From positions 186,001 through 250,000 of the forward strand of contig CALMUP010000019.1 in the NCBI GenBank assembly GCA_937872895.1: DNA of 64,000 bases, read 5' to 3'. The stretch is from an uncultured Verrucomicrobiota bacterium. Lineage in GTDB: Bacteria; Verrucomicrobiota; Kiritimatiellia; CAIVKH01. Made by a program: the position numbers and the translations under genes. Of the stretch, positions 9,804 to 26,653 are shown one piece after another; the first letter of the stretch is position 1, and every line of letters begins with the position of its first letter. The notes beneath the pieces are model-generated. The model did no database searches, was not told the DNA's origin, and was given only the letters and a program-made list of their open reading frames with translations.

Positions 9804-10292
9804 CTACTCCCTCGGCGCTGAACCTGCCGCCAGCACCGCCTCCACATCCGCGGGTGCATCCAGGAACCTTATCTCGGACAACACCTGTTGCTCATCCAGC
9901 ACGAACAGCGCGATCTTGCCCTTCTGGTGAGGATAGGTCTGGGCAAAGCTTTTCTCCGTCGCCAGCAGCAGGGTGAAGGGATACTTCTTCATTTTCGGCA
10001 GGGCGAACATTTTGGTGATGATACCGGGCATCGGTTCGATGTCCGAAACGTATTCGGTTTTGTGCGCGGCCAGGTACCCCTGCTCCTTCGGCTTGAGCCA
10101 TTCGTTGAGCTTTTCCGAAATGCCTTTTTCGCTGGCGACCACGACAAACCGGGTCGAGGGAGACAGGGTGTTGGTATGGCCGAACTGATCCTGCAGCGTA
10201 TACGCGGGAAACGGCTTTCCGACTTCGGCCATCCCGGCATGAGCAGGGACGGACGCCATCAGGACGACAAACAATAGCAGCATTTGCTTCAT
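9804..10292 (-). CDS. Exported thioredoxin-fold-like protein of unknown function
   Basis: A 162-residue protein with a clear signal peptide (MKQMLLLFVVLMASVPAHA) and an AAGGAG ribosome site before the ATG. After cleavage it reads EVGKPFPAYTLQDQFGHTNTL, which resembles the opening of thioredoxin/peroxiredoxin-like domains, but no CxxC is present. A beta-alpha pattern with KYPFTLLLATEKSFA and KIALFVLDEQQVLSEIRFLD follows. Family is uncertain; a YtfJ-like periplasmic role is possible. It ends 4 bases before the DUF423 start. Confidence 0.65.
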   Translation of the reverse strand: MKQMLLLFVVLMASVPAHAGMAEVGKPFPAYTLQDQFGHTNTLSPSTRFVVVASEKGISEKLNEWLKPKEQGYLAAHKTEYVSDIEPMPGIITKMFALPKMKKYPFTLLLATEKSFAQTYPHQKGKIALFVLDEQQVLSEIRFLDAPADVEAVLAAGSAPRE

Positions 10293-10433
10293 GGTTTCAC
10301 TCCTTCGTATCCATGTTTCGCGACACACCGTCGGCCAACGCCCCTCGTTGACGAGGACGAGGTTGCCGCCGGATCGCCACCCCGGGCAAAAGGCGTAGTT
10401 CCGGCATCCTAGCACCTGCGATGAAAAGAGCAA

Positions 10434-12479
10434 TCAGGCCAGCAGCTTCTTCTCCACCAGCTTGAGCAGGCGCGGGAGCAGCAACACCGACAACACCAAG
10501 GCATAGGCCACGCCGATGACCAGCAGGATGGAAAAGGAGGCCAGGCCGCGATGCCGGGTGAAGGCGAGGCTCGCGAAGGCGGCGATGGTCGTCATGGACG
10601 TCAGCACGACACTGCGGCCCGCACCGGCGAAGGTTTTCGCGAGGTCGCCGCGATCATGCATGAACCGATGGACAACATGGACCCCGTCATCCACCGCGAT
10701 GCCGAGAATGACCGGCAGCGCCATGATGTTGAGCGGGTTGAACGGCAACTGCATGGCCTTCATGATCCCGAACATCCCGGCCACGGTCAGGTAGGTCGGC
10801 ATAACGGCCAGGACGGTCGGCAACAGACGCCCGAAATTCAACCAGACGCAGAGGAACAGCAGGATCCCGCCGATCAATCCGGCCTTGAGGAGCGCACGGT
10901 TCGATGCCTCGGTCATGAAGCGCCCGAGAAACGGCATGCCGGTCACTTCGGGGTTGATCTCCCGCATGCGGTTGACAAAGGCCTCCTGCGTTGCCGGATC
11001 CCAGATGTTTCCGGCGGGATACGCATAGACCGCGTAGTGATGGGCGTCGCTGACAAATCCACGGAGGAAATCCGCCGGCCAGGTTCCCGACCCATCCGCG
11101 ACCGGAGCGAGCAGGTCCAGGTCGGAAATCGACTTCACCTCGGAAACGACCGGCTCGTCGAGCAGGCGGTCGGCCAGGTCCACGGCCTCGCCTTTTGACG
11201 CCAGCGTGAAGACGGCGAACTGCGTGGAGAGGGCGGACCGGTCGGCGATGGCGCGCTCAAGCCGCACCGCCTCGGAGTCAACCGGCTGGATGTGGGTGTA
11301 GTCGCCATCAAACCCCGGCCCGCCGATGACACACAAGGCCACACTGGCGATCGCGAGCGGAACCGTCACCGCCGGATGCTGGAGCCGCAACAACAGCCGA
11401 CCCACCCGGCTTTCCCGGCCGCCCGGGAGAACACGGTTCCGCCCCGGAACCAGCACCAGCAACGCAGGCAGCACCGTGGCCATCATGACCATGCAGACCA
11501 GGATGCCGACACCGGCGATCAATCCCAATTCGGCGAAGCCCTTGAATTCCGTCGTCATCAACGCGAAAAAGGCCAGGGCGGTCGTCATGGCGCCGGTGGT
11601 CAGTTCCGGAGCGATGAGACCCACGCTGGCCGGAATCGCCTCCTTCTCGGTCATGCCAAGCCGGACCGATTCCTCGATGCGGTTGATCAAGTGGATCCCG
11701 TAGTCGATCCCGAGGCCGAACAGGATCGAGGCGAAAAAGGCCGACAGCAAGGTCAGGTGCCCGGGATACACGGCAACCGCGCCCAGGATCACGACCACGG
11801 AAAGGGCCAGCGTGATCATCGCCAGCAGCGGCCGGCGCATCGAAACGAACCCGGCGACAAAAATGATGCCGATCAACACGAACGAGACGTAGGACAGGTA
11901 CCGGATGTCGTGCTGGATGACATCGCGGTCGTCGATCGCATATTTCGGGATACCGGTCATTCCGGCCTTGATGCCCGCAGCCTCGAGTCCATACGCGTCG
12001 AGCAACTGCTGGACACCGTCGATCAGCGGCGCAAGGGTCTCCGCCTGCGACCGGGCATCCTCCGGCTGCACGAAGATCATGTACATGCCATGGTCGCGGG
12101 ACGCCAGGTAGGGATCAACGCCGGCCCGCGCGAGGATTTCGTCGTCGAGCGGAACCTTCTCCAGCACGCTGCGCACGCCAGGCAAAACCCGGATGGCCGG
12201 ACCCAGTGCGCCGGCCGCCTTCTCGAGTTCGGCCGGATCCTTCCCCTCCAGCGCGATCACCAGCAGGTTGGGTGTCCCGAACTCCTGCGCGAAGTCGAGG
12301 AACGCCTTCACCGCCGGCAATTCCGGATCGATCAGGTCCAGGTTGGATGTCTTCAGGACCAGCCGATGCCTGGCCACCAGCAACGCGACCACCGACAGCA
12401 GCAGGACCGCGGCCAGCACCATCCGGGGACGATGCACGGCCAAGCGGGCCGCTCCCTCAAACCACCGCTGCCGCATCAT
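10434..12479 (-). CDS. RND/MMPL-family exporter (HpnN-like)
   Basis: A 681-residue membrane protein with two repeats, each a membrane helix, a large periplasmic loop and five more helices. The fourth-helix motifs GLGIDYGIHLINR and GIAVDDGVHVVHR carry the acidic residues used for proton coupling. The single-chain architecture matches MMPL/HpnN lipid and hopanoid exporters more than drug-type RND pumps. It is the last gene of the eight-gene minus-strand operon and overlaps the hydrolase gene by four bases. With a prenyl synthase and a YceI protein in the same operon, an isoprenoid or lipid substrate is plausible but not shown. Confidence 0.85.
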   Translation of the reverse strand: MMRQRWFEGAARLAVHRPRMVLAAVLLLSVVALLVARHRLVLKTSNLDLIDPELPAVKAFLDFAQEFGTPNLLVIALEGKDPAELEKAAGALGPAIRVLPGVRSVLEKVPLDDEILARAGVDPYLASRDHGMYMIFVQPEDARSQAETLAPLIDGVQQLLDAYGLEAAGIKAGMTGIPKYAIDDRDVIQHDIRYLSYVSFVLIGIIFVAGFVSMRRPLLAMITLALSVVVILGAVAVYPGHLTLLSAFFASILFGLGIDYGIHLINRIEESVRLGMTEKEAIPASVGLIAPELTTGAMTTALAFFALMTTEFKGFAELGLIAGVGILVCMVMMATVLPALLVLVPGRNRVLPGGRESRVGRLLLRLQHPAVTVPLAIASVALCVIGGPGFDGDYTHIQPVDSEAVRLERAIADRSALSTQFAVFTLASKGEAVDLADRLLDEPVVSEVKSISDLDLLAPVADGSGTWPADFLRGFVSDAHHYAVYAYPAGNIWDPATQEAFVNRMREINPEVTGMPFLGRFMTEASNRALLKAGLIGGILLFLCVWLNFGRLLPTVLAVMPTYLTVAGMFGIMKAMQLPFNPLNIMALPVILGIAVDDGVHVVHRFMHDRGDLAKTFAGAGRSVVLTSMTTIAAFASLAFTRHRGLASFSILLVIGVAYALVLSVLLLPRLLKLVEKKLLA

Positions 12480-13486
12480 GGTACCGCATCCTCCGTTGGC
12501 ATCCTGGTTGATGAAAGATCGGCCGCGGGCCGGCGGCCCTGTCGCGTCATCGTGACCAGGTCCGTGATCCCGCGTTGGTCGAGGAGAACCGGCATCGTCC
12601 AGTTGAGGTTCAAGGCCTTCGCCGCCGCAGCGAACCGGGGCAACGCCGAGGACGGCCGGTCAAACGACAAGGTGAATGTCCCGAAATGGCATGGAATGAC
12701 CTCGCCTGCGCCGAGCAGTTCCGCGACACGGGCGGCCTCCTCCGGATTGAGGTGATGGTACTTCAACGGGATACGCGGCGCGTAGGCGCCGATGGGGAGG
12801 ATGGCCAGGTCCGGATGGAACCGTTCGCGCAGGTCCTGCCAATCGTTGGCGAACGCCGTATCGCCGGCGACATAGATCGTCTTGCCGTCCGGGCCGCTGA
12901 TCATGTACCCGACGGCGGCGAAGGTGCTCCGGAGCGGATGAAACCGGTTCCCGTTGTGCGCCGCCCGCACCGGCGTGATCCGCAAGGCCCCTGCGGTATA
13001 GGTGGTATCCTTCTCGACCGGAAGAATCACGTCGCGGCCGCCGGAAAAGCGTTCAAGGAAAACCTCGCTTCCCGCCGGAATGAGGATGGACTCGAGTTGC
13101 TCGATACCGGCCAAGGTGTCGATGTTCAAATGGTCGTAGTGCGCGTGGCTGATCAGGACCGTCGCCGGACCGATGCCGGCCAGCGGCGGCGGGAGCTCCA
13201 TCGTCCGCCGGGCAACGGTGCAGCGCCCGCTCAGGTTCGGATCAACCAACAAGGTCTGTCCGTGCCAGTAGATGACGAATCCCGAATGGCCCAGCCACCG
13301 GATCCATGGTTCGCCCTCGCCGCGGGCAGCCTCCGCCGGTCGCAGCTCGCCGGGAATCCGGTTCCACCCGGTGGCTTCCGGCCAGGCGCGCCGCGCTCCC
13401 CACCATCCCAACCGCATCGAAGCGGCCACCACAAGCACCGCGATAACAACGACCATCATGGTACGTCCATTCAAGAGGTTCATCAC
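12476..13486 (-). CDS. Membrane-anchored metallo-beta-lactamase-fold hydrolase
   Basis: A 336-residue protein: an N-terminal membrane anchor (about residues 10-24), then a metallo-beta-lactamase fold of the UlaG/NAPE-PLD kind. The zinc site motif SHAHYDH is at residues 113-119, a further histidine is in RAAHNGNRF, the bridging Asp is in YVAGDTAF, and the late histidine in IPCHFGTF. NAPE-PLD-like relatives cleave phosphodiesters of lipids; others are lactonases, so the substrate is open. It overlaps both neighbours by four bases and is translated as part of the operon. Confidence 0.85.
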   Translation of the reverse strand: MMNLLNGRTMMVVVIAVLVVAASMRLGWWGARRAWPEATGWNRIPGELRPAEAARGEGEPWIRWLGHSGFVIYWHGQTLLVDPNLSGRCTVARRTMELPPPLAGIGPATVLISHAHYDHLNIDTLAGIEQLESILIPAGSEVFLERFSGGRDVILPVEKDTTYTAGALRITPVRAAHNGNRFHPLRSTFAAVGYMISGPDGKTIYVAGDTAFANDWQDLRERFHPDLAILPIGAYAPRIPLKYHHLNPEEAARVAELLGAGEVIPCHFGTFTLSFDRPSSALPRFAAAAKALNLNWTMPVLLDQRGITDLVTMTRQGRRPAADLSSTRMPTEDAVP

Positions 13487-15402
13487 TGGCTCCCGGTCGC
13501 CAGTGTTTTGACATAAGCCACCACATCCGCGACATCACGGTCATCCATGGTTTCATGTCCGGGCATGTGCAACCCGACCAGCCCGAACGTAACGATACGC
13601 GAAAGGGCCAGCGACTGCTCCTGTTCAGGCAGGTTGGCCGGCGCATAGAAAAACGGCCCTTTGGCGAGGTTCATGGCCGGGCGGAAAAACAAGGGGGACA
13701 GCGGGCCATCCCCCCGGCCATCCCGGCCGTGGCACATGGTGCAGTTCCGGCTGAAGACCCGGCGTCCGTTTTCCGCGGACGGAACATGTCCTTCGGCATC
13801 AGGCGTCCATGCCTGGATCACCGACAGCCGCTCGGTGCGTGCCGCGACGCCGAGCGCGGAGAGGTAGAGCACGAGGGACGGGCCGCGGCGATCGCCGGCC
13901 TGGAAGAGATGCGCGTACGAGGGCATCTTCGATCCGGGCGATAACGAGGTCGGTGCGATCAGATGTTGTTGGTGCCACTCCGGGGTGCGGCGCAATCCAA
14001 CGTTCAGCAGGTCGGGTCCCTGGCGACGGTTTCCCACCATCGGCGGGTGCTCGGTCCGATCGATCGCGCGGTACGGACCCCACCACACGACATCGCGCGG
14101 ATTGTTCGGGCGGATGTACTGCGAGTGGCAGTGGATGCATCCTTCCTGCCGGTACACCGCCCGTCCAATCTCCAGCGATGGTTCCCCGGTGACGGCAACC
14201 CTCCCGGTTTGGTCCACCGTGAAGAACATGACGCCTCCCGTCGCGGCCAGAAGCACCGGAGCATAGCGAAGCAGCGGGCGGAACCGGTCATGGTCCACGG
14301 CGGCTCCCAGCAGCACGGGCAACCCGGCCATGACCAGCAACGGCAGCGGAATGCTGTGGAGATGCTGGGCCAGGCCGACACCGAGCCCCGAGCCGATCCA
14401 GCCCGCCACCGCGTACAGGATGGCCGCCCGCCATCGCACCGGAACCCGTCCGGCTTGTTCCTTGTGCAGCGACGGGTAGGCGACCAGCGCCGTGGAATAG
14501 ATCGAGATCCCGATGGCATAGAGGGGCCCGGACGTCCATGCCCCCGGTTCACCGGCCTGCAGCAGGGTGAATGCCGTGGCGAATACCGCAAAGGTCGCCA
14601 CCAGCAATCCCTTCAAGGTGCCGCGGTCGATCATCCACCCGGCGAACACGGCGGCGCCGAAGTGGAAAACCCCCAGCCCCATTTTCATCGACGGGGTTCC
14701 CCAGGTATGGGCACGGAGCTCCCCGGTCAACTGGATGGTGGCGAACGCGGTGGAATCCAGCCAGACCAGGGCGAAGAACATGGCGACAACCGAGGCAAAC
14801 CCCCACCCGGCATAGTCGCGGGAGGGGCGCAGGTTGGAGCCGGTCGACGCGTTTTCCGTCACGGGCGAGGCGATCACGACAGCCGCACCCAGCAGGCAAC
14901 CGAGTGCCGACAGGACGGTCTGCGCGAGCGGGCTGGCATCAAAGACCAGCGGGATGTTGCACACCAGATAGGCCAGTCCGGTTCCGAGTCCCGCCAGCAG
15001 GCCCAGCCTCGGACCGGACAACCATTGCCGCAAGCTGGATGCCAGGGTCACGGTGGCGGCACCGGTTGCTCCGCCGATCAGGAACGCCGTGAGGTAAAAC
15101 CAGGCGGCATGGCGGCCGGCCAAGGTGAGCAAGGCCGATGCGGCACACCCGGTTAGCGCAGCCGCAAGCAGGCGCGCGGGTTTCACGCGGCGCAGCAGGA
15201 GCGGCGTCAGCAGGCTGGACACCAGGCCGCCGAGGCCCATCGCCCCCATGCTTCGTTCCGTGTAGCCCGGATCGGCAAAAAACAGCTTGAGGTAGGACAC
15301 AAAGCCGAATTGCGCATACAGCAGGAAGTAGACATACGTGGCGGCGATGGCCGTCACGCCGGCCCATGCGGGAGCCATGCGAAACCGAGGCGGCAGGGTC
15401 AC
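13483..15402 (-). CDS. MFS transporter - CcoO-like - cytochrome c fusion
   Basis: With the GTG start that overlaps the preceding stop (GTGA), the protein has 639 residues. Residues 1 to about 400 form a twelve-helix major-facilitator-like domain. A CcoO-like haem c domain follows: CIHCHSQYIRP (422-426 is CxxCH), then GPDLLNVG and the ligand Met in GSKMPSY (about 493). A second cytochrome c domain has CTMCHGRDGRGDG (554-558) with a Met in HMPGHE (about 613). CcoO is subunit II of cbb3 oxidases. The CcoN-like gene lies two genes upstream in the operon. Fusion of a transporter to CcoO is unusual. In Rhodobacter the separate MFS protein CcoA imports copper for cbb3 assembly, but no copper-site evidence is claimed here. 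Confidence 0.82.
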   Translation of the reverse strand: MTLPPRFRMAPAWAGVTAIAATYVYFLLYAQFGFVSYLKLFFADPGYTERSMGAMGLGGLVSSLLTPLLLRRVKPARLLAAALTGCAASALLTLAGRHAAWFYLTAFLIGGATGAATVTLASSLRQWLSGPRLGLLAGLGTGLAYLVCNIPLVFDASPLAQTVLSALGCLLGAAVVIASPVTENASTGSNLRPSRDYAGWGFASVVAMFFALVWLDSTAFATIQLTGELRAHTWGTPSMKMGLGVFHFGAAVFAGWMIDRGTLKGLLVATFAVFATAFTLLQAGEPGAWTSGPLYAIGISIYSTALVAYPSLHKEQAGRVPVRWRAAILYAVAGWIGSGLGVGLAQHLHSIPLPLLVMAGLPVLLGAAVDHDRFRPLLRYAPVLLAATGGVMFFTVDQTGRVAVTGEPSLEIGRAVYRQEGCIHCHSQYIRPNNPRDVVWWGPYRAIDRTEHPPMVGNRRQGPDLLNVGLRRTPEWHQQHLIAPTSLSPGSKMPSYAHLFQAGDRRGPSLVLYLSALGVAARTERLSVIQAWTPDAEGHVPSAENGRRVFSRNCTMCHGRDGRGDGPLSPLFFRPAMNLAKGPFFYAPANLPEQEQSLALSRIVTFGLVGLHMPGHETMDDRDVADVVAYVKTLATGSQ

Positions 15403-15803
15403 GCCTTGTCCTTCCCGGCGAGCATGACCAGCAGCACCGCCTGGATCGCCGCCATCGCGGCATCGCTCATCGGCACGGACATCCAGGTCGGGTCGAGGGC
15501 GCCTCGCAGGATCGACCATCCGCTGAACGAGGCGATCACAACGCGCACGATCAGCGTGGTGACCAGGAGGCCGCGCACCATCGCCCGGCGGTCCCGGACG
15601 AGGAACGGGGTGAAGTAGGACAATCCCACGCTGAACACGAAGGCCCCGATCCACTGCATGTAGACCGGCTCGACCAGGGTCGATGCGACGCCCATGACCG
15701 ACAAGGTCCAGACGGGCGCCGCCATCAGCATCACACCCGAAATCGTGTCGCAGCATCCGGCCAGGACCAGGTAGATCAAGGTGGTTTTTTCGAGTCGAAT
15801 CAT
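15399..15803 (-). CDS. Four-helix membrane protein, unknown
   Basis: A 134-residue protein with four predicted membrane segments (about 9-30, 46-67, 76-98, 113-129). No family was recognised. Conserved-looking features are CCDTISG after the first segment and VRDRRAMVRG between helices two and three. It sits between the CcoN-like gene and the MFS-cytochrome fusion, overlapping both by four bases, so it is probably an accessory subunit of the same membrane complex. Confidence 0.75.
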   Translation of the reverse strand: MIRLEKTTLIYLVLAGCCDTISGVMLMAAPVWTLSVMGVASTLVEPVYMQWIGAFVFSVGLSYFTPFLVRDRRAMVRGLLVTTLIVRVVIASFSGWSILRGALDPTWMSVPMSDAAMAAIQAVLLVMLAGKDKA

Positions 15804-17083
15804 GCGGAACTCCCGCGAAGATGGACGTGGCGCAGCCAGAACCAGGATGCGGACAGCATCACCGCTCCCGCCACCCAGCGCAGCGCATACAGCGTGTCGA
15901 TGACCGGATGCGAGAAGAACAGCCAGCCCGGATGTGCGGCCTCGACCAAACCCGCCGCGAGCAGGGCCCCGGCATGCAGCACCGTGCCGGCCTGCCAGGC
16001 GACAAAGGCCTGGCGCGAGACGGGAAAGGAGGACGGGCACAGCACGGACAGCACCAGCATGTTGAAACTGGTGACCATGCCGGCCATGGCGATATGGACA
16101 TGTGCGACCAGGGCGTTGGTGAATTTCCACTGTTCGAGGATATGCGGCAGGAAGGTCAAGATCCCGTCGAGCACCAGCAGGGCGCCCCAGCAACCGAAGG
16201 CGATCAACCAGCCCCGCGAAGCAGCCGGCCAGGTGAAGGACCGCAGGTGGCGGACGAGCAACGGCACCCAGAGGGCGAGGCTGGACAAGGCGATGATCTG
16301 CACCGGTTCATGATGGGAGCGATCGCCGTGATCCAGCAAACCAAACGCGCCGAAATGCAGCACCAGCAAGGCCAGGGACGGTGCAAACGAGCGCCATGCG
16401 CGGTCGGTGGGAAGACGGAGCAGGAATGGCGTCATCCAGTAGATCAGGATGATCGCCAACGTGCTTCCGAGCAGGCTGCCACCGGTCGCACCGCCGCTGT
16501 CCGGATTCACCGGAGGGTACAAGGACGGGTCGGCGGCGAGAACCAGGACGACCGGAACGGAGGACAGGACAACCAGTCCGCCGGTCTTCACCACCACCGA
16601 GCATCGCCTCGTCCACCCGGCGGGAAAACCGGCCTCGGCGGCAAGCCGGCGCGCGTGGGAAATCCACAGGGAAAGCGCGAGGAAGGTCATGCCGGCGAAG
16701 ACCGCGATGCGGGAGGGGCCCGCCCATTCCATGAACAACTTGCCGCTGGTGATCCCCATCAACCAGCCGACGATGGAAAAGGCCAGCATCGCCGACCAGG
16801 CCGAAACCGCCGCGGTGGCGATCCGGTTCTCCCCGTACCGCGGCAGGTAGACGAGGTACAGCAGGCCGATCAGCGGGATGCTCGACCAGCCGTAGAGGCT
16901 GGCGTTGAGGTGAACCGTCATCCACCGGCCATAGGTCAACGGACCGAGCAACGGGCCCAGCGATGGCACGAGCAGCAGCGTTGCCAGGAGAAGCCCGACG
17001 GCGTTGCCGAGGAACAGCCAGAGCAGGCTGTGCCGTGCGATGGCGTCAAACGGCGCCATGTCTGCTGGACAGGACCGGCTCAC
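15800..17083 (-). CDS. CcoN-like haem-copper oxidase subunit I homologue, incomplete Cu site
   Basis: With the GTG start overlapping the prenyl synthase stop (GTGA) it has 427 residues and about eleven to twelve membrane helices. Helix two, YGRWMTVHLNASLYGW (His58), and MGITSGKLF match the equivalent parts of cbb3 subunit CcoN. AHVHIAMAG (His328, His330) matches the haem b3/b ligand pair, and SHHEP (His257-258) matches two of the Cu ligands. The third Cu ligand, in the CcoN motif WWYGHN, is replaced by GGSLLGST, and the cross-linked Tyr is not seen. It may bind two haems but is unlikely to be an ordinary oxygen reductase. Confidence 0.75.
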   Translation of the reverse strand: MSRSCPADMAPFDAIARHSLLWLFLGNAVGLLLATLLLVPSLGPLLGPLTYGRWMTVHLNASLYGWSSIPLIGLLYLVYLPRYGENRIATAAVSAWSAMLAFSIVGWLMGITSGKLFMEWAGPSRIAVFAGMTFLALSLWISHARRLAAEAGFPAGWTRRCSVVVKTGGLVVLSSVPVVLVLAADPSLYPPVNPDSGGATGGSLLGSTLAIILIYWMTPFLLRLPTDRAWRSFAPSLALLVLHFGAFGLLDHGDRSHHEPVQIIALSSLALWVPLLVRHLRSFTWPAASRGWLIAFGCWGALLVLDGILTFLPHILEQWKFTNALVAHVHIAMAGMVTSFNMLVLSVLCPSSFPVSRQAFVAWQAGTVLHAGALLAAGLVEAAHPGWLFFSHPVIDTLYALRWVAGAVMLSASWFWLRHVHLRGSSA

Positions 17084-18066
17084 GCGAAGGTGATGGCCCG
17101 GTTGGCGTGGCACGTCCGGAGCCTCGCATGCACGTTCCCCTGTTCGGTCTCGAGCATGGACTGGAGACGGTCCAGGACCTCCGAGCCGGGAATCAGGCGG
17201 TAGAGCGCGGCGATCACCCCCCGGCTTTCCTCCAGCTGTCCGGCAAGCACGTCGGCGGCACGCGCCACACCCATGACCCGGGGAAGGTTCGGGTGGTCGA
17301 GGTGTTCATCCCGGGCGGTCGTCTTGCCCGTTTCCGCGTCGGACATGACGAGGTCCTTGAAGTCGTCGAGGATCTGGTAGGCCAGGCCCCAGGAGGCGGC
17401 CAGGCGTTCGACGAGCTCCACGACCGCGGGTCCGGCGCCGTGAATATGCACGGGAAGGAGCAACGTCAACCGGATCAAGGTGACCGTCTTGCCCTGAGCC
17501 ACGCGCAGCACGTCCTCCTTCCGGCGATCGCTTTCCGAAAAATGCAGGTCGTACGATTGCCCGTTGAGGATGCCCTTCACACCGAGGCATTGATGGACGA
17601 GTTCGGCCGCCTTGTTGCGGTTATCCCGCGATACGCCGTCAAAGACGGACCAGAGCAGGTTGTACGCCCTGGTGATCAGCGCCAGCGCCCCGAGGATGGC
17701 TGCGGCCTCCCCGTGCACGATATGGGGGCAGGTGGTTCCGCGGCGCATGGTTGCGTTGTCCATGCAGGGCAGGTCGTCCAACAGCAGCGAAGCGGTGTGG
17801 AAGTATTCGATGGCCACGCCCAGGTGCCTCGCCACGTCCGGATCAAACTCGAACGAGCGCATCAGGCTGTAGGCCAGGTGGGCGCGGGCGAGGCTGCCCG
17901 GATGGGACAGGGTATCATCGATCACGCCGCGCAGGTGCCGTTCGACACCGGCATCCACCGGCAGCAATCCGGAAAACCCCGCGGCGACAAACTCCTGCCC
18001 GGCGGCATCGAGCAGGCCGAGCCTCGATACCGGCGCCTTCTTCATATGGTCTGGTCTGGCGATCAT
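17080..18066 (-). CDS. Polyprenyl diphosphate synthase family protein
   Basis: A 328-residue all-alpha isoprenyl diphosphate synthase. The first aspartate-rich motif is LLLDDLPCMDN (DDxxxxD), followed by RRGTTCPHIVHGEAAAILG; the second is AYQILDDFKD (DDxxD). These residues bind Mg and the diphosphates of the allylic substrate and IPP. The Leu/Pro around the first motif resembles FPP/GGPP synthases (IspA/CrtE), but chain length cannot be read by eye. It lies at the head of the tightly overlapping part of the operon. A start ten codons upstream of MKKAPV was chosen; MKKAPV itself is possible. Confidence 0.85.
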   Translation of the reverse strand: MIARPDHMKKAPVSRLGLLDAAGQEFVAAGFSGLLPVDAGVERHLRGVIDDTLSHPGSLARAHLAYSLMRSFEFDPDVARHLGVAIEYFHTASLLLDDLPCMDNATMRRGTTCPHIVHGEAAAILGALALITRAYNLLWSVFDGVSRDNRNKAAELVHQCLGVKGILNGQSYDLHFSESDRRKEDVLRVAQGKTVTLIRLTLLLPVHIHGAGPAVVELVERLAASWGLAYQILDDFKDLVMSDAETGKTTARDEHLDHPNLPRVMGVARAADVLAGQLEESRGVIAALYRLIPGSEVLDRLQSMLETEQGNVHARLRTCHANRAITFA

Positions 18067-18188
18067 ACGTGTTTTCCATTCTTGTCGCGGTGGCTTCGTG
18101 TACCGGTGATTAGACGATGCGGGCGCAGGGAACCGCAAAAGAGATCGACTTACCGTTTCGTAAGGATTGGACGGGCGGCAGGCGGAGG

Positions 18189-18827
18189 TCAGCGAACGGG
18201 GGCCGGCGCGGCAGGATCAACGGGTTCCGAACGGTCCTGCCATCCGGCGGCGGTCAGTGCATCCACCGCATCATGCCGGTCCAGGGCGGAGGAGGTCATG
18301 ACCAGCATGGCCCGGCTCATGTAGTCATCGGAAACATCAACGCGCACAAGCGGGGCATTGGACACGATCGAGAACCCCCCGGGATCACGCGCCACGGTTG
18401 CGCTGCCGAGTTCGATGAAGCTCCGTCCGGGTTGGAATACGAAATCCATCACCAGGGTGTAGGGAAGCCCGGCCTGTTCGGCAGTTCGCGGCACGGCCAC
18501 GACGGCCTGCTTGGCGTGTTCCAGGGCCTCGAGGTACCGCTGCGAGTCGGCGTATCCCTGCCGGTTTTCCGGCCACAGCGCGGCCTCGCGTTCCCTGATC
18601 TCCCTGATCCCGCGCCGGATGCTGGGCGAGTGCAGGATGGTTTGCACACAACACGCGCCTTCGCCGGTGCGCTGCACCCTGGTTTCACCGTGGACATTGT
18701 CCGCGGAAGGAATGTACGCGCGCGCCAGGATCACTGCCGTGGCATCTCCGGCCACGGCGTCGGCGACGACGGGGAGCAGGGCGAGCGCACATCCGGCCAC
18801 CAGGCCGCGCACGGAAGGCCTTGTCAT
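18189..18827 (-). CDS. Exported protein of unknown function
   Basis: A 212-residue protein with a signal peptide (MTRPSVRGLVAGCALALLPVV). The mature part contains GEGACCVQTILHSPSIRRGI with two adjacent cysteines, an alpha-helical stretch (AALWPENRQGYADSQRYLEALEHA, split around residues 95-115) and a beta-rich end. No family was recognised. It lies 11 bases after the YceI gene and 122 bases before the prenyl synthase, on the same strand, so it is probably in the same transcript. Confidence 0.65.
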   Translation of the reverse strand: MTRPSVRGLVAGCALALLPVVADAVAGDATAVILARAYIPSADNVHGETRVQRTGEGACCVQTILHSPSIRRGIREIREREAALWPENRQGYADSQRYLEALEHAKQAVVAVPRTAEQAGLPYTLVMDFVFQPGRSFIELGSATVARDPGGFSIVSNAPLVRVDVSDDYMSRAMLVMTSSALDRHDAVDALTAAGWQDRSEPVDPAAPAPVR

Positions 18828-18838
18828 CGACGGAACTC

Positions 18839-19393
18839 CTATTCCTGCGCGGGGGCGCTCGTGTCGAGCGTCACATGCGACAAGACCTGGACGGTGTCAT
18901 TCACCCGGATGATGCCGATCACGGACGGCGGCTTCAGGCCGAACGCCTTGAGGGACAGCGGGAATTCCATGTCGAAGGAGAGGCGGCCTTCCGAGGAGGT
19001 GACGGCCGTCACCTTGCCGGTCACCGAACGGGTCTCGCCGTGCAGGGTGACGGAAACCGGAAGATCGGCCTCGTCACCGGTCTTCAGTTCCAGCAACGGA
19101 CCGGCCGCGGCCGTCCCGGTGATCAACGGAAACTCGTCGGCGTGGAACATGTGCATCATCTCCTTGTCACGCTTCTTCTTGCCGGTTTCCATCTTCGCGA
19201 TCTCGAAGGTGACGTTGATGGACGGGTCTTCGGGCTGCACGACCACCGGGTTGCCGACCGCTTTTCCGGTGAAGCTGTCGACCGTCGCCTTCACCTTGAA
19301 ATCCGAGGACACCGAACCGTACAGCGGCTCGCGTGCGCGGGCGGAGAGGGACAGCAGGGCAAGGACAACAAGGGCCGGTAACAGGTTTTTCAT
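18839..19393 (-). CDS. Exported YceI-family protein
   Basis: A 184-residue protein with a signal peptide (MKNLLPALVVLALLSLSARA) followed by a lipocalin-like YceI beta-barrel. Family features are FKVKATVDSFTGKA, FEIAKMETGKKKRDKEMMHM, FHADEFPLITG, and TLHGETRSVTGKVT. Crystallised YceI proteins hold an isoprenoid or other amphipathic tail in the barrel. It is the first gene of the operon that also encodes a prenyl synthase, so a role as periplasmic carrier for a prenyl compound is a reasonable inference. Confidence 0.82.
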   Translation of the reverse strand: MKNLLPALVVLALLSLSARAREPLYGSVSSDFKVKATVDSFTGKAVGNPVVVQPEDPSINVTFEIAKMETGKKKRDKEMMHMFHADEFPLITGTAAAGPLLELKTGDEADLPVSVTLHGETRSVTGKVTAVTSSEGRLSFDMEFPLSLKAFGLKPPSVIGIIRVNDTVQVLSHVTLDTSAPAQE

Positions 19394-19509: not shown

Positions 19510-20844
19510 TCAGAATGGGTCCGCGAATTTCGGATCCGTGACCAGGGCGGGATCGGTAAGGGTCTTCATGAAGGCGACCAGCGCGGCCTTTTCCTGGGCG
19601 GTGAAATTCGGTCGCCGCACGACCGGCGGCTGGCCGGGAGGTCCGGGCTGCAGCAGCGGCGGGCCGAGGTTGGCGTTCTGCACCACGCCGGTGCTGTAAT
19701 GGTCGACGACGGCCTCGAGCGTGGCGAAGCGGCCATCGTGCATGTAGGGCGCGGTCAGCTCGATGTTGCGCAGCGAGGACATCTTGAACTTGCCCTGGTC
19801 GGCGGCCTGGCCGGTGACCCCGCCCACCCCGAGGTCCACGAACGGGAATTCGAGCCCGTTGTTCTCGATGCGGGCGCCGACGAAGTTCGGACCGGCGTGG
19901 CAGGCCGCGCAGTTGCCGCGCGGACCGTTGAAGAGCTGCTGGCCCTGTGCCTCGAGGGGCGTAAAGTTGGTGAAGCCGACCGGCACGCCGGCATCGAACT
20001 TCGTCTGGTAGGAGACGATGGACCGCACGAACTGCGACAGGGCGTGGGCGACCCGCGTGGTGGTGATGGCCGTGCTGCCGAAGGCGTTGGAGAAGAGCGT
20101 CTGGTAATACGTGTAGCCGGCGAGCCGTTCGACCAGGCCGGTGAGGGTCATGCCCATCTCCACCGCGTGCTGGATCGGCTGGAGCACCTGCTCCTCCAAG
20201 GTGGCGGCGCGTTCATCCCAGAAGAAACTTCCGCGCTGGTAGTAGCGGGCGCTGGTGAGGCCCATCGAATTGCGGTCGGTCAGGCCGCCGAGGAATCCGG
20301 TGCTGAACCGCGCCGGATCACTGAACCCGTGTTGTGGCTGGTGGCAGGAGGCGCAGGAGATCGCATGGTTCGCCGACAGTTTCACGTCGTAGAACAGCAC
20401 GCGGCCGAGCGTGGCGCCGGCATCGGTGACTGGATTGCCCGGCGGCGTGTTGTCGGTCGCGATGACCGCGGGGGCGAGCAGGTGCGCGGGCAGCGGCGGG
20501 TTGGCGTAGGCGTAGGGCGAGACGGGGAGGGAGAGGACATTGGAAATGCTGCTGTCGGCGATGACGCGGAGATACCGGCCCGGCGCAAGCGAGGGTTCGA
20601 GATCAGGCAAGGCCGAACGGCCAGAGCCATCAAGCGTGGTCAGGGAACCAGCGGCGAACCACACGACGAGGTCGGACGATTGCTCCACGCGCCAGTGGGA
20701 CTGGCCAACCGATGCATCAGCGAGGTGCAACAGGAATTCCGGGGCGAAGGGCGACTCCAACTGGAGGGTGGTTTGGGCCGGGGCGTTCAGTACGGCGAGA
20801 CCCGACCACATGAATCCGGCGAGAACCGATCGTAACTGTTTCAT
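19510..20844 (-). CDS. Dihaem cytochrome c peroxidase/MauG-family protein
   Basis: A 444-residue exported protein (signal peptide MKQLRSVLAGFMWSGLAVL). After about 115 residues of beta-rich sequence comes a CcpA/MauG module: haem 1 at CASCHQPQHGFSD, haem 2 at CAACHAGPNF, plus RNSMGLTSARYYQRGSFFWD and APYMHDGRFATLEAVVDHY, all typical of bacterial dihaem peroxidases. These act in the periplasm, taking electrons from small cytochromes to peroxide, or oxidise other substrates in MauG relatives. It is on the same strand as the haem-protein operon but separated from it by about 115 bases. Confidence 0.88.
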   Translation of the reverse strand: MKQLRSVLAGFMWSGLAVLNAPAQTTLQLESPFAPEFLLHLADASVGQSHWRVEQSSDLVVWFAAGSLTTLDGSGRSALPDLEPSLAPGRYLRVIADSSISNVLSLPVSPYAYANPPLPAHLLAPAVIATDNTPPGNPVTDAGATLGRVLFYDVKLSANHAISCASCHQPQHGFSDPARFSTGFLGGLTDRNSMGLTSARYYQRGSFFWDERAATLEEQVLQPIQHAVEMGMTLTGLVERLAGYTYYQTLFSNAFGSTAITTTRVAHALSQFVRSIVSYQTKFDAGVPVGFTNFTPLEAQGQQLFNGPRGNCAACHAGPNFVGARIENNGLEFPFVDLGVGGVTGQAADQGKFKMSSLRNIELTAPYMHDGRFATLEAVVDHYSTGVVQNANLGPPLLQPGPPGQPPVVRRPNFTAQEKAALVAFMKTLTDPALVTDPKFADPF

Positions 20845-21049: not shown

Positions 21050-24000
21050 CTACGGGGACTGGACGCGGTAGAAGAGCCGGGGCGTATTGGTATCGATCGG
21101 CAGGGTGGCGCGGAAGAAGGCGGAGCCGGGCGGGGTTTCCGGGACGAGGTTGATCCATTGCCACTGGCTGGCCGGGGTGAACAGGTTGGTGGTGGCGTAC
21201 ACCGAATAGGTCGCGCCGGTAACGCCGCCGGGGAAGTCGAAAGCGAGGGAGCCGGCGGGGCCACCGGTCGGATTCCGCACGAGGCTGGCGAGGGTGACCT
21301 CGTTGGTGGAACGAATAAGCTCATAGGCGCCTATATCGCGCAGGGCGTCGCGGAGATATCCACGCTGGTCCCCGGCAGACAAGGCCAGTAGCGAGCGATC
21401 GATGGCCGGACTCCATGGCAACAGCGCCCGCGTCGGGGTGCGGCCCCCGTAATCGGCCAGCGGGGCAAGACCGGGATCGGCGACCCCGACCAGGTTGCTG
21501 TTCACACCGTCGAGCAGTCCACCCGATCCGCCTGTGCCGACCAGGTTGTAGCTGGAGTCAACCCCGATCGGTACCGGTCCGCCGATATCGGAAGGGTTGC
21601 CGTTGCCGTCCACGTTCATGGCGACCAGCGTTGCCTCCATCGTGGTGGACTTGGATCCGTTGCCGTTGAAGATGCCACCGCCGCTGGTCCCCGCGGTATT
21701 GCCGGCAATGGTCGAATAAACGGTGTGGTTGGTTCCGAAGTTTGCGATGGCCCCACCCCACTCGCCGGCAGCATTGCCGGAAAGGGTCGAGGAGATCACG
21801 CGCAGCGAGGCATTGCTCTCCACGTAGGCCACGCCGCCGGCCTGGATAGCGGTATTGTCCCGGAAGGTGGCAAAACTCATGGTGAGCGCCCCTTGCACGT
21901 ACACGCATCCGCCGTTGGTGGCTTCACCGCCGGCCAGGGTGAAGCCCTGAAGGACGAGCGTGCTACCCGGCACAACGCGGAAGTGGCGCATCGGCGCGGG
22001 TCCGTTGACCTGGAGCGTCACACGCGGTGTCGGTCCGGAGGCCCGGATAAAACGAAACGACTGATTGGTGAAGAGGATTGCGGTGTTGCCGAACAAGGTG
22101 TCGCCGATCTGTGTGAGTTCAACCGTCCGTCCGGCAAGGTTCGTGGAGAAATCGACCGTGGCAGCGGTGTAGTGCATCGCCTCGCGCAGACTGGTTCCGG
22201 TGCCGAAGCGGGCATCGCTGGTCACGTCGAACTCGTCGTTGGTGGTGGTGACCAGGGAAGATTCAAACACGGTCAGTTCGAAGGCCCCGGCATCGGGGGC
22301 GCCGGCGCTGATGCGGGCATTGCCGCGTTGATCGGTCGTGAAGCCGGCCAGCGCGGAGCCGCGGTTGAAGGCGGGGCTGTTCGGCAAGAGTGCAACGGTC
22401 GGGGTCGATCCGCCGTTGGTCAGCGAGAGCCCTTCGACGAGCAGCGCGGCCCCGTTGATCCCCGTGATGTTGCCGTTGATGCCGTTGGTGATACCCGCCG
22501 AGTTGCCCGTTCCGAACACGTTGCCGGAACTGGTCGGGGCGAAGACGCCGCTGCCAAAGGTTGCCACGCCGTCGCTGGAGTTCCCGGCAACGATGGAGTT
22601 GTCGATCGGCACCACGGTGTCATACAGCCACAAGGTTCCGTTGGGACCGCTGTTCGCGGTGACCGTGATGTGTTTCAGCGAGTTGGAAATCGCGCCGGTG
22701 CCGATCGCGCTGGCCACATTGGCGGAGGTGTTGCTGACAAAGGTCGCGTTCTCGACAACGAGCAGCGGTGAGCCACCCCATACCTGGATCGCCCCGCCTT
22801 CGCCGCCCGCGCTATTGCCGACAAACGTGCACCGGCGAACGGTGAGCGCGCCGAGGTAGTTCCAGATGCTCCCGCCGTAGTCGGGCGAATAACCGCCGGA
22901 CAGGGTGAGGTCCTGCAGGGTCAGCGCAGCGCCGGGCTCGATCAGGAAGTGGCGTTTCTGCGCGGCTGGCGCGACGGCCAGCGTGATCCCCGGCGCATTG
23001 GTCGGACCGTTGAGGGTGATGGCATTCGTCACGCGCAGCGCACTCGCGTCCGAGGCGTTGGTCCACCCGGCGTTCAGGGAGATGGTCTGTCCCGCCAATG
23101 CGGGCGCGAAGGTGATGGTCTGCGGCCCGCCAAGCGTCTGTGCATACGCCAGCGCCTCGCGCAGGCTGGTGCCGGTGCCCTGCTCGGAATCCGCGTTGCC
23201 GTCATTCTCGTCGATCGCGGTCGAGACGACGAGCGGATCACGCGGGAAGACCTCGAACGCGCCGATGTCCGGGATCGTATGGCGGGCCACGCCGCGTTGA
23301 TCGGTAGTCAGGCCGGGAATTACCGCGCCTGCCTTGTGCGCGGCGCTGGCGGCCGTGATTGGGAATGTGGGCGTCGGTCCGCCATAAAGTCCGAATGTGC
23401 CAAGGCCGGGATTGGAGAACAGGTTGCTGACGCTACCCGCGAGAAGGGTGACATCGGCCGCGTCCGCCACGATGGAGTTCCGCAGGAGGTAATTTTTATT
23501 CAACCCGCCGATACCGCCCGGATGGTTGCCTCCATTGCCGAAAACCGTGCAGGCGACGAGTTCGATCTGGCCGCTCGACCAGTTCCAGACCGCCCCGCCC
23601 GGATAGTTCCCGGCAACATTGTAGGCGAAGGTGCTGTTGGTCACGGCCAGCGTGCCGTTGTTTAATATGCCACCGCCGCCCGCCGTCATCCCGCGGTTGG
23701 CCACCGTGGAGTTGGAAACGATGGTGGACGAGGCCACCGACAAGGTTCCGGTATTAAAGATGCCGCCGCCGGCCGCGTCGGCCGTGCTGGAGGCAAAAAT
23801 GGTCCGCGCTACCCTGCCCGTACCGGCATTCCGAAGTCCCCCGCCCCGGCCCGCATAGCCACCAGCCAGCACGCTATCCTCGACGACCAACGAACCGTGG
23901 TTGTCGATAATACCACCCAAATTCGAGGCTGAAACACGTCCGTTCTGAAGCCGCACGTTGCGCACAACGAGACTGCCGATGGGGCGTACACTGAACAGGC

Positions 24001-26653
24001 GCATATCCCCGACAGACCCTCGGGCGATGGTCAGCGCGCCCGTGGTGGTGTTCTCGATCACAATGTCCCGGTTCACGACGAGGGCGGTGTTGCCGTCCGC
24101 GGAGTCGCCGACCTGCTGGAGGCTGATGGTCGCGCCGGCCAGCGCGGGAGCGAAGCGGATCACCGACGGCCCCGGATAATTATTCGCGGCGGTAAGGGCG
24201 TCGCGCAGGGTCACATTAGTCCCGAGCGTGCTGAAGATCAGGTTGGTATTAAAGCCGGCCGGGTCGGAGGCGTCGGTCACGATGACCGTGGATGTGGCGG
24301 AGAGCGAGGTAAACGAGAAGTTGCTCACGCGCTGGGTCGCGGTCGCGCCGCCGGTGGCCGCAGTCAGGCCGATCCATGCCTGGTTGGCGAGAACAGCACC
24401 CGGAATATCCACGACAAAGTTGGTGGTGAAGGTGGTGTTGGACGTCAGGTTTGTCATGGTGACATTCAAAACGCCGTTCAAGTAGAGCAGGTCGAACCGG
24501 ATCGGATTGGTGGAGGCGGGGTTGGCCTCCGGCGTGGGGATGTAGGGGTTGTTCGTCGTGATGCCCGCCCCGCCGGTGGAAACCTGGATGCCGGGTCCGC
24601 CGGGTGCGCCGTTGAAGATGTTGATCATGAAGGCGAAGCTCGGGCTGATGCCCAAGTAACCGAGCCCGCCGCCTCCGCCGCCCTGTGCGGAAGGGCCGGC
24701 CGAGGCATTTTGAATGACAAAGGCCACGCCATCAGCTCCGCCACCACTGGCATTCAGGTACTCGAACGAGGCCTGGAAGGCATTGATATCCTGCTTGAAA
24801 AGGTACCAGGCGCTGCGGCTCTGGCCGAAACCGCCATCGGTCAGGGTAAAAACCTGATTGGTGTATTCCGCGCCGTTGTTTAACTGCCACGAAAACCGGT
24901 CATCGGTGGTGCCGTCGGTGATGATCAAAGAGAATAGACGATCGGTGAGATTGTACGCATTGAACGCGCGCACCAGGATCTGATACAGCCCGCTGGGCAC
25001 GGCCGGGTTGCCGGAGAGAAGGCCGACCGGGGTGAAGTTGAGTCCTCCCGGAATCGGCGTGAGGGGTGCGAAGGACAACGGCAACCCACTATCCGCCGTG
25101 AACTGGAAGTTGTTGGACTGGCCGATCAAGAAGATCGTCGATGTCGGCGAGGTAAAGACCGGCGCGAAGGTGGGAAGCTCATACGAGCCAAGGTCGGGCG
25201 CTTCGTAGCGCGGCTGGCCGCGGGCATCGGTGGTCAGACCGGCCACGGCGAATCCGGCATTCACCGCAGTGCTGCCAATGGGTAGCGCCATGGTTTTTAC
25301 CGGGCCGCCGTTCGTGGTCAGGACACCGAGCATGACGTTGGTGTTGCCGACGAAGTTGGTGCCAGTGGTGGTCATAACACCCGTGAGATTTGCGGGGACA
25401 AAACTGCTCGTGTTCGGATCCCACCGGTCGTTTTCGATCACGAGGTTGTTTTCGAGGGTGTTGACGAACGCGCTACCAACATCCAGTGCGAAGGTTTCCG
25501 GCAGGTTCTGGATATTGCGGGCAACGGTACAGTTCACCATCCGCATGGCCACGCCAAACTGATTATCCACCGCCGACCCGTAGCGCGCACTGTTGCCGGC
25601 GAAGGTGATGTTGGTGAGGCCGAGCGTTCCATCGTTGAAGATGGCGCCGCCACGGCTTAAAGCTCCGCTGGATTGGTTGCCCTCAAAGGTGGAATCGGCA
25701 ACCGAAAGGGTGCCGCGATTCTGTACCGCACCGCCCCACTGCGCGGTCAATACGGTGTTGGATGCAAAACTGCTCGCAAAAATCGCGAGGGTGCCGACAT
25801 TCAGAACCGCCCCACCTCCCGCATATACGGCTGGCGTTGGAAAATTACCGACATATTCCACGCGGTTGCCCTTGAATACGGAATGGGTAATGAGCGAAAG
25901 GCCGTTGGTGGATTCCGATCCAATGGCCGGTCCGGAAAATTCCGAAATATTGCTTTCGAAGGTGCAGTTGGTGACATACATGGATGCCTCAACCGTGCTG
26001 AAGAGTGTGCCCGAATTCTGGCCGTTATTGAAACCGAAGAAGGAGTTGCGGGCAACGAGCCGCCCCCGATTGAACACGGCGGCGCCATAGCCGAGGTCAC
26101 TGCCGTTGCTGATGAACAAGGACGATGCGACAAACGAGGTCATGGTGACCTGGTCGAGGGTCAGGTCGCCTTCATTCCAGAAGCCGGCGCCGTTGTTCGC
26201 GACGCCGCCGCGCAGGGTCAGGCGCTCGACCCGCACGGTCGCACCCGCCGCGACATCAAACAGGCGCAGTAACCCGCTGGGGCGGATGTCCACGCCGCCC
26301 GCCGGCGCAACCAGTTCGATGTTCGAGGTGATGCGGAGCGCGGTCGGCCCGCCGTTGTTGCGCGGCGACCCGTGGGGATCCATCGTCGAAGTGCTCTGGA
26401 TCAGGCGGATGATCGCACCGTTTAGCGAGGCGTCAAAGACGATGGTGTCATCCCCCGGGGTATTGTTCGCGGCCGTGACCGCATCGCGCAGGGTCACCGT
26501 CGGACCGAGCGTGCCCACCGTCAGGTTGGTATTGAACCCGGCCGGATCATTGGTGCTGTTGACGGTGATGGTGGCGGCGTGACCATTGCCAATCATACCC
26601 ACGACGCCAAGCAGGAAACATACAGAACGAAGCGCAACCCGGATACGGATCAT
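21050..26653 (-). CDS. Giant exported four-module beta-helix protein with lectin-like insert
   Basis: An 1867-residue protein with a signal peptide (MIRIRVALRSVCFLLGVVG, ending GHA). Four modules each begin with a CSLREA-like segment (VTLRDAVTAANN at about 50; VTLRDALTAANN at about 815; TSLREALAYAQ; TSLREAMHYTA), continue as right-handed parallel beta-helix coils rich in NxGTL and FxxNxA steps, and end with a choice-of-anchor Q motif (TTDARGQPRYEAPDLGSYEL, TTDQRGVARHTIPDIGAFE, and two more). Between modules one and two is a legume-lectin-like domain (SWQLNNGAEYTNQVFTLTD, then GADGVAFVIQN). The C-terminus has YSVYATTNLF, a common verrucomicrobial tail. Such proteins are cell-surface adhesins or polysaccharide-active proteins; no catalytic residues were identified. 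Confidence 0.85.
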   Translation of the reverse strand: MIRIRVALRSVCFLLGVVGMIGNGHAATITVNSTNDPAGFNTNLTVGTLGPTVTLRDAVTAANNTPGDDTIVFDASLNGAIIRLIQSTSTMDPHGSPRNNGGPTALRITSNIELVAPAGGVDIRPSGLLRLFDVAAGATVRVERLTLRGGVANNGAGFWNEGDLTLDQVTMTSFVASSLFISNGSDLGYGAAVFNRGRLVARNSFFGFNNGQNSGTLFSTVEASMYVTNCTFESNISEFSGPAIGSESTNGLSLITHSVFKGNRVEYVGNFPTPAVYAGGGAVLNVGTLAIFASSFASNTVLTAQWGGAVQNRGTLSVADSTFEGNQSSGALSRGGAIFNDGTLGLTNITFAGNSARYGSAVDNQFGVAMRMVNCTVARNIQNLPETFALDVGSAFVNTLENNLVIENDRWDPNTSSFVPANLTGVMTTTGTNFVGNTNVMLGVLTTNGGPVKTMALPIGSTAVNAGFAVAGLTTDARGQPRYEAPDLGSYELPTFAPVFTSPTSTIFLIGQSNNFQFTADSGLPLSFAPLTPIPGGLNFTPVGLLSGNPAVPSGLYQILVRAFNAYNLTDRLFSLIITDGTTDDRFSWQLNNGAEYTNQVFTLTDGGFGQSRSAWYLFKQDINAFQASFEYLNASGGGADGVAFVIQNASAGPSAQGGGGGGLGYLGISPSFAFMINIFNGAPGGPGIQVSTGGAGITTNNPYIPTPEANPASTNPIRFDLLYLNGVLNVTMTNLTSNTTFTTNFVVDIPGAVLANQAWIGLTAATGGATATQRVSNFSFTSLSATSTVIVTDASDPAGFNTNLIFSTLGTNVTLRDALTAANNYPGPSVIRFAPALAGATISLQQVGDSADGNTALVVNRDIVIENTTTGALTIARGSVGDMRLFSVRPIGSLVVRNVRLQNGRVSASNLGGIIDNHGSLVVEDSVLAGGYAGRGGGLRNAGTGRVARTIFASSTADAAGGGIFNTGTLSVASSTIVSNSTVANRGMTAGGGGILNNGTLAVTNSTFAYNVAGNYPGGAVWNWSSGQIELVACTVFGNGGNHPGGIGGLNKNYLLRNSIVADAADVTLLAGSVSNLFSNPGLGTFGLYGGPTPTFPITAASAAHKAGAVIPGLTTDQRGVARHTIPDIGAFEVFPRDPLVVSTAIDENDGNADSEQGTGTSLREALAYAQTLGGPQTITFAPALAGQTISLNAGWTNASDASALRVTNAITLNGPTNAPGITLAVAPAAQKRHFLIEPGAALTLQDLTLSGGYSPDYGGSIWNYLGALTVRRCTFVGNSAGGEGGAIQVWGGSPLLVVENATFVSNTSANVASAIGTGAISNSLKHITVTANSGPNGTLWLYDTVVPIDNSIVAGNSSDGVATFGSGVFAPTSSGNVFGTGNSAGITNGINGNITGINGAALLVEGLSLTNGGSTPTVALLPNSPAFNRGSALAGFTTDQRGNARISAGAPDAGAFELTVFESSLVTTTNDEFDVTSDARFGTGTSLREAMHYTAATVDFSTNLAGRTVELTQIGDTLFGNTAILFTNQSFRFIRASGPTPRVTLQVNGPAPMRHFRVVPGSTLVLQGFTLAGGEATNGGCVYVQGALTMSFATFRDNTAIQAGGVAYVESNASLRVISSTLSGNAAGEWGGAIANFGTNHTVYSTIAGNTAGTSGGGIFNGNGSKSTTMEATLVAMNVDGNGNPSDIGGPVPIGVDSSYNLVGTGGSGGLLDGVNSNLVGVADPGLAPLADYGGRTPTRALLPWSPAIDRSLLALSAGDQRGYLRDALRDIGAYELIRSTNEVTLASLVRNPTGGPAGSLAFDFPGGVTGATYSVYATTNLFTPASQWQWINLVPETPPGSAFFRATLPIDTNTPRLFYRVQSP

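Follow-up and report, generated by a model that had tools for sequence, protein, structure and literature searches.

A 64,000-nucleotide stretch of an uncultured Verrucomicrobiota genome of 3.87 Mb (contig CALMUP010000019.1, positions 186,001 to 250,000; hereafter the window) carries a conserved cassette in which a copper-less relative of CcoN, the haem-copper subunit of cbb3 oxidases, is encoded together with its own prenyl diphosphate synthase, a lipid-type exporter and a YceI lipocalin. The cassette resembles a system that gives the cell envelope an electron-carrying lipid of its own, probably a quinone-like one. On balance we read the locus as one envelope system, in which a dedicated prenyl lipid would be made, exported, carried by YceI and redox-coupled to a copper-less CcoN/CcoO/cytochrome c assembly.

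A gene block conserved across phyla

The open reading frame (ORF) list places eight genes on the minus strand at 10434-19393 of the window. Six of them, from the prenyl synthase to an MMPL-family gene, overlap their neighbours by exactly 4 bp at all five junctions: GTGA where the prenyl synthase gene meets the CcoN-like gene, ATGA between the latter and a four-helix membrane protein gene, GTGA on either side of a gene fusing a major facilitator superfamily (MFS) domain to CcoO, and ATGA between a metallo-beta-lactamase-fold hydrolase and the MMPL gene. Upstream of this chain lie a YceI gene and a gene for an exported protein of unknown family, an arrangement that the first-pass annotation had described correctly. 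Pfam and NCBIfam scans agree with its family calls, those for CcoN and MFS being settled by predicted fold.

A scan of 84,980 species genomes revealed 128 relatives of the CcoN-like protein, mainly in Verrucomicrobiota and Acidobacteriota, from which 80 loci were retrieved. Neighbourhoods were counted over 93 non-duplicate loci, each count taking only loci with enough flanking sequence (covered loci); genes of the relatives came from a custom caller and stop-to-stop ORFs, some contigs stop inside the cassette, and the counts depend on the chosen score thresholds. A prenyl synthase lies within 4.5 kb of the CcoN-like gene in 62 of 70 covered loci and YceI within 5 kb in 52 of 58, with CcoO (76 of 78), the MFS domain (72 of 78) and the four-helix gene (77 of 87) likewise nearby. 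Moreover, the distances of each cassette protein follow those of the CcoN-like protein (Mantel r 0.76-0.92, against a shuffled maximum of 0.11). Because the block is conserved across phyla, its arising by chance is excluded, and co-occurrence together with the tracking distances therefore indicates one system. The first-pass annotation had expected a conserved block with prenyl synthase and exporter if this were so, and CcoN-like and fusion genes never beside the prenyl synthase, YceI or exporter genes if it were not; we looked for both patterns and found the co-occurrence. Three weak matches (L005, L006 and L021; loci L037-L039) proved to be true cbb3 operons and served as controls.

Strong CcoN-like matches (E < 1e-50) were found in 14 genomes of the phylum besides the window's own (289 searched), in one more of the window's family, and in 5 of 247 Acidobacteriota genomes, including the genome used as centre. 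Since such matches occur in few of the sampled genomes, the cassette is an accessory, patchy trait. Its carriers are soil and water bacteria: in Verrucomicrobiota, Opitutaceae, Akkermansiaceae, Verrucomicrobiaceae and others; in Acidobacteriota, Terriglobus roseus, Edaphobacter modestus, Acidipila rosea, Granulicella and Thermoanaerobaculia. To these are added two Bdellovibrionales metagenome-assembled genomes and one labelled Rhodanobacteraceae, which may be mislabelled and is placed with Terriglobus on the tree. Terriglobus roseus DSM 18391 (L085) and Haloferula luteola (L110) are carriers available in culture.

A copper-less CcoN relative and its cytochrome c partner

The CcoN-like gene (15800..17083) encodes a 12-helix haem protein whose Pfam CcoN score, 33.5, falls just under the cut-off of 34.8. 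Its AlphaFold2 model (predicted local distance difference test, pLDDT, 93) matched cbb3 CcoN at Z 28.9 and nitric oxide reductases at Z 27-28, the models being single chains without haems. In window numbering, the ligand residues are H58 and H330 for the low-spin haem b and H328 for the b3-type haem, with H257 a single distal histidine. When 85 CcoN-like proteins were compared with true CcoN, H58, the histidine of transmembrane helix 2 (TM2), and H328, the first of TM10, were present in 85/85; H330, the second TM10 histidine, was kept in 71/85, the window included, and lost in Terriglobia and L077. The set that holds the copper ion CuB, one histidine in TM6 and two in TM7, is by contrast incomplete: the TM6 histidine is missing from 81/85 proteins, the second TM7 histidine (H258) is variable (58/85), and the cross-linked tyrosine motif was not found in the CcoN-like proteins. 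The four proteins that have the TM6 histidine carry Asn at 257, and every one of the 85 has one, never both, of these two distal histidines; a tree computed with the TM6/TM7 distal columns removed required each change twice. It is possible that one former CuB histidine ligates the b3-type haem from the far side, giving a bis-histidine haem. The earlier designation as CcoN-like thus stands for the oxidase fold and is refined by the loss of the CuB ligands.

Because the CuB site is absent, the protein is not expected to act as a canonical O2 reductase. CcoN homology and fold, and the presence of CcoO, are what a divergent cbb3-type terminal oxidase still reducing O2 or NO would show; we nevertheless regard such an oxidase as very improbable, given the missing CuB and tyrosine signatures, the low-spin haem histidine lost in Terriglobia and the lack of CcoP. 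As the first-pass annotation had noted of the window, CcoN and CcoO homologues occur without CcoP: no CcoP gene is among the recurrent neighbours, and only weak CcoP-like cytochrome c similarity is found inside the fusion protein.

That fusion protein (13483..15402) joins an MFS domain to a CcoO-type mono-haem cytochrome c domain (FixO, 84 bits) and a second cytochrome c domain (Cytochrom_C, 56 bits). Its MFS domain is weak by sequence (E 9e-4), and the AlphaFold model of residues 1-363 is a complete 12-helix MFS fold (Z about 30). A role for this domain as a CcoA-type copper importer was considered at the level of the fold and not adopted. Because both CxxCH motifs and both Met ligands are invariant in 70/70 fusion proteins, the protein probably passes electrons to, or takes them from, periplasmic cytochromes. 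The same invariance bears on an alternative in which the redox complex alters the prenyl chain or head group by oxidation, desaturation or cyclisation, and the lipid plays a structural part instead of carrying electrons. Catalysis could take place at a haem whose distal side is open or has a single histidine, and the membrane-anchored hydrolase (12476..13486; PF12706, Lactamase_B_2, 84 bits; metal-site motif SHAHYDH in the translation) suggests processing; however, sequence points to no substrate site, and the ligands that never vary in the fusion protein belong to haem c electron-transfer motifs, so we consider lipid modification unlikely. Accordingly, of the first-pass proposal that a membrane redox system modifies, carries and exports a prenyl compound, one conserved system with synthase, YceI and exporter holds, whereas the modifying step is conjecture, and the lipid could equally be an electron carrier.

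Between the CcoN-like and fusion genes lies the four-helix membrane protein (15399..15803), which is distantly DUF4345-like: 9 of 41 members match DUF4345 (best E 5e-5), and a sequence search gave no relative with a solved structure. In L022 the four-helix and CcoN-like proteins are fused in frame in a 598-aa ORF. A 1133-aa ORF in L036 was rejected as a single-protein fusion, the four-helix gene being out of frame within it.

Synthesis, head group and export of the lipid

The synthase gene (17080..18066, start at 18066 or 18045) encodes an all-trans prenyl diphosphate synthase (PF00348, 125 bits) with DDxxxxD and DDxxD motifs intact. Each of ten cassette-bearing genomes searched has the cassette synthase and at least two other prenyl synthases. 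In a tree of 94 synthases, the 75 from cassettes form a single clade (100/100) apart from all 19 others, which were sampled from those ten genomes; the stem branch of the clade is long, and its exact sister group is uncertain. By its sequence, then, the cassette enzyme is a dedicated paralogue. An alanine at position -5 of the first aspartate motif favours products of C20 or longer over C15. This alanine is present in the window's synthase, as in the readable cassette synthases, whose catalytic motifs are intact, and suggests a product of C20 or longer.

Two exporters alternate beside this synthase. In 76 loci (type A), an FtsX/MacB-type permease and an ATPase lie between the prenyl synthase and CcoN-like genes; in seven, including the window, an MMPL/HpnN-like protein is found instead, as a rule 3′ of the metallo-hydrolase, which is present in six of the seven. 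No locus has both, and the two versions are mutually exclusive. A representative type A pair scores best against LolC/E (97 bits, cut-off 362) and LolD (215 bits, cut-off 308), both below cut-off. The window's MMPL/RND protein (10434..12479; PF03176, 107 bits) is related to HpnN and BstA, reaching 317 bits on the HpnN model TIGR03480 (cut-off 752) and 241 bits, also under cut-off, on that for BstA; the first-pass call of an MMPL/HpnN-like exporter is upheld by these models as a relationship, and refined to one of two interchangeable exporters. Lipid export by the cassette is best supported by this swap, in which two unrelated lipid-extracting machines alternate next to one and the same synthase and carrier. 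MMPL-type loci form one clade of the CcoN tree (Shimodaira-Hasegawa-like approximate likelihood ratio test, SH-aLRT, 97), and because this clade mixes the window's family with Acidobacteriota and Bdellovibrionota, it suggests horizontal transfer. Export of hopanoids or carotenoids was considered and rejected: squalene/phytoene synthase (SQS_PSY) was not found in the window's genome, which is 95 percent complete (squalene-hopene cyclase itself was not searched), making it unlikely that the HpnN-like protein serves either class.

Seven relatives carry an aromatic head-group gene within the cassette, four of them for isochorismate synthase and three for a UbiA-type prenyltransferase. L042 encodes the prenyl synthase and a chorismate-binding enzyme as one 782-aa protein, and in L044 and L040 such an enzyme adjoins YceI and the prenyl synthase; all three score above the cut-off set for TIGR00543, the isochorismate synthase model. 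A weaker match in L061 falls below it; the start of this gene overlaps the end of the cytochrome gene, and a 139-aa ORF on its 3′ side, MenA-like at first sight, matched no family. The UbiA-type genes (TIGR01475) are above cut-off in L057 and L086, where they overlap the MMPL stop codon by four bases, and below it in L102, a partial sequence in which UbiA lies 3′ of the hydrolase. UbiA is followed in L057 by genes for a BstC-like protein and a UbiE-like methyltransferase. The L057 and L086 genomes each hold a second UbiA-like gene, and these two share 70 percent identity with one another but only 46-50 percent with the L057/L086 cassette copies, for which reason we take the cassette copies to be extra paralogues. 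A UbiA gene in L084, far away and on the opposite strand, was not counted. The simplest reading of these genes is that the cassette product is a prenylated aromatic, quinone-like lipid; for the window, this we infer from the relatives.

In the envelope system that we favour, the cassette's own synthase would make the C20 or longer chain, to which isochorismate synthase, UbiA and a UbiE-like methyltransferase, encoded in the cassette in some relatives and elsewhere in others, would join an aromatic head group, yielding a lipid that resembles a quinone or phenol and is separate from the housekeeping quinone. The exporter (MMPL/HpnN-like here, LolCDE-like in most relatives) would then pull the lipid out of the inner membrane and the periplasmic YceI lipocalin take it towards the outer membrane, and the CcoN-like protein, with its b haems, and CcoO-cytochrome c would swap electrons between the lipid and periplasmic cytochromes c, so that the lipid would serve as an extracytoplasmic redox carrier or antioxidant. 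The identity of the product, where it goes, which way electrons flow and what the MFS domain, four-helix protein and hydrolase contribute are, in this scheme, what we infer. A more specific version, which we put forward tentatively, is that an oxygen reductase has turned into a copper-free lipid:cytochrome c oxidoreductase, with a far-side histidine on the b3-type haem, serving a second, dedicated quinone pool that is exported by the Lol-like or MMPL machine and carried by YceI. The joint presence of export machinery, a redox complex and aromatic head-group genes would also suit an exported quinone shuttle passing electrons to extracellular acceptors or outer-membrane partners; yet an outer-membrane cytochrome conduit is not among the recurrent neighbours, and we hold such a shuttle to be distinctly unlikely.

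Several observations weigh against the envelope system as we read it. The lipid product is a prediction from gene content; head-group genes are confined to the seven relatives, with none in the window's own cassette, and the products of the UbiA and isochorismate synthase genes could be serving ordinary menaquinone synthesis. The prenyl synthase is missing from eight covered loci. The haem arrangement is not uniform, because Terriglobia have no second TM10 histidine, and part of the Mantel correlation must be shared host ancestry.

Related systems and neighbouring genes

The YceI-family, lipocalin-fold protein (18839..19393; PF04264, 52 bits; N-terminal signal sequence in the translation) is the presumed prenyl-lipid carrier. 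YceI lipocalins contain octaprenyl compounds or ubiquinone-8, and the Burkholderia YceI protein BcnA works with the cytochrome b561 LcoA against lipid peroxidation (PMC9113575). Like BcnA-LcoA, the cassette ties a carrier of this isoprenoid-binding family genetically to a membrane b-type cytochrome; unlike it, the cassette has an unrelated cytochrome and adds a dedicated prenyl synthase, an exporter and c-type cytochromes. The parallel raises the possibility of a sub-case of the envelope system that differs in purpose: the exported prenyl lipid would quench outer-membrane radicals and be re-reduced by the cytochrome complex. Besides the shared pairing, this lipid-peroxidation defence draws on a two-component system whose nearest matches are heavy-metal and envelope-stress regulators and which is encoded after the cassette in 18 of the 63 loci with full coverage, and on a di-haem peroxidase gene upstream in the window. 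LcoA and the CcoN-like protein are, however, not homologous, and the BcnA system has no dedicated synthesis and export genes; we regard the defence as possible, if doubtful.

BstA, an MMPL relative of HpnN, has been proposed to transport sterols to the outer membrane with BstB and BstC (PMC10942540). The window's exporter belongs to the same subfamily as those of HpnN hopanoid and BstABC sterol export, and a BstC-like gene follows in L057; in contrast, the window's genome has no squalene/phytoene-type synthase, YceI takes the place of BstB, and the exporter is swappable for the LolCDE-like pair. That pair in turn resembles LolCDE in its best matches and differs in its below-cut-off scores, its single permease gene and a carrier that is YceI rather than LolA. 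With cbb3 oxidase the cassette shares the CcoN fold, the TM2 histidine, the TM10 HxH, the CcoO haem c motif and CcoN lying 5′ of CcoO, whereas it has no CuB site, tyrosine cross-link motif or CcoP, sets CcoO behind an MFS domain and before its own cytochrome c, and includes prenyl and export genes in the operon.

By these sequence tests the cassette is not a cbb3 oxidase (CuB, CcoP), nor HpnN or Lol (cut-offs). In its working it may instead resemble a combination of BcnA-LcoA and BstABC, with an oxidase descendant as the cytochrome and a synthase of its own. Each part taken singly is a member or a variant of a known family; because only YceI is common to the nearest working analogue, we hold the cassette to be a new kind of system. 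We found no known system that couples a haem-copper-oxidase descendant lacking copper with prenyl-lipid synthesis and export genes of its own, and the cassette is described in no open-access full text that we found, subscription papers lying outside the search. If our reading is true, it would reveal a second function for the oxidase fold, the study of how respiration evolved would gain a natural experiment in the loss of copper, and one could ask directly whether bacteria maintain redox lipids as a pool of their own beyond the inner membrane. A cbb3 oxidase annotation in Verrucomicrobiota or Acidobacteriota may, moreover, belong to a gene whose product is not an oxidase.

All-against-all clustering identified as other frequent neighbours the two-component system, the metallo-hydrolase, a protein like that encoded at 9804..10298 of the window and, in some Opitutaceae, PAP2 and sulfatase-fold genes; a few further families recur in just 4-6 loci each. 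In L024, L027, L030, L033, L056, L069 and L079 (several Opitutaceae), sulfatase/lipoteichoic acid (LTA)-synthase-fold and lipid A-type PAP2 phosphatase genes adjoin the cassette. The gene at 9804..10298 (minus strand) lies just 3′ of the eight-gene block, outside the first-pass coordinates, and encodes a probable accessory exported protein for which no family was found in Pfam or NCBIfam. It may belong to the cassette as a ninth gene, given that homologues lie beside the cassette in 19 gene-called loci, the window among them; these homologues are almost always on the opposite strand, usually divergent from YceI. The exported protein encoded at 18189..18827, between YceI and the synthase, had zero Pfam or NCBIfam matches and was seen only in the window and its family member G003/L022.

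Cassette structure also varies. Reduced versions in L028 (8049-11046), L029 and L062 have CcoO-cytochrome c without the MFS domain, and L028 and L029 have neither four-helix nor exporter gene in the stretch read. A minimal version in L023 (9131-11184) comprises YceI, an ABC pair, the CcoN-like and four-helix proteins and a lone CcoO without the second cytochrome c, with no prenyl synthase nearby. In L046 (11657-19217) and L076 (11680-19121), an opposite-strand run of histidine-biosynthesis-like genes splits the CcoN-like and four-helix genes from the MFS-CcoO gene. In the window itself, the di-haem cytochrome c peroxidase gene (19510-20844, minus strand; CCP_MauG, 158 bits) lies just 5′ of YceI on the same strand and is no recurrent neighbour in relatives, and beyond it an exported repeat protein of 1867 aa (21050-26653, minus strand) shows a weak legume-lectin-like match.

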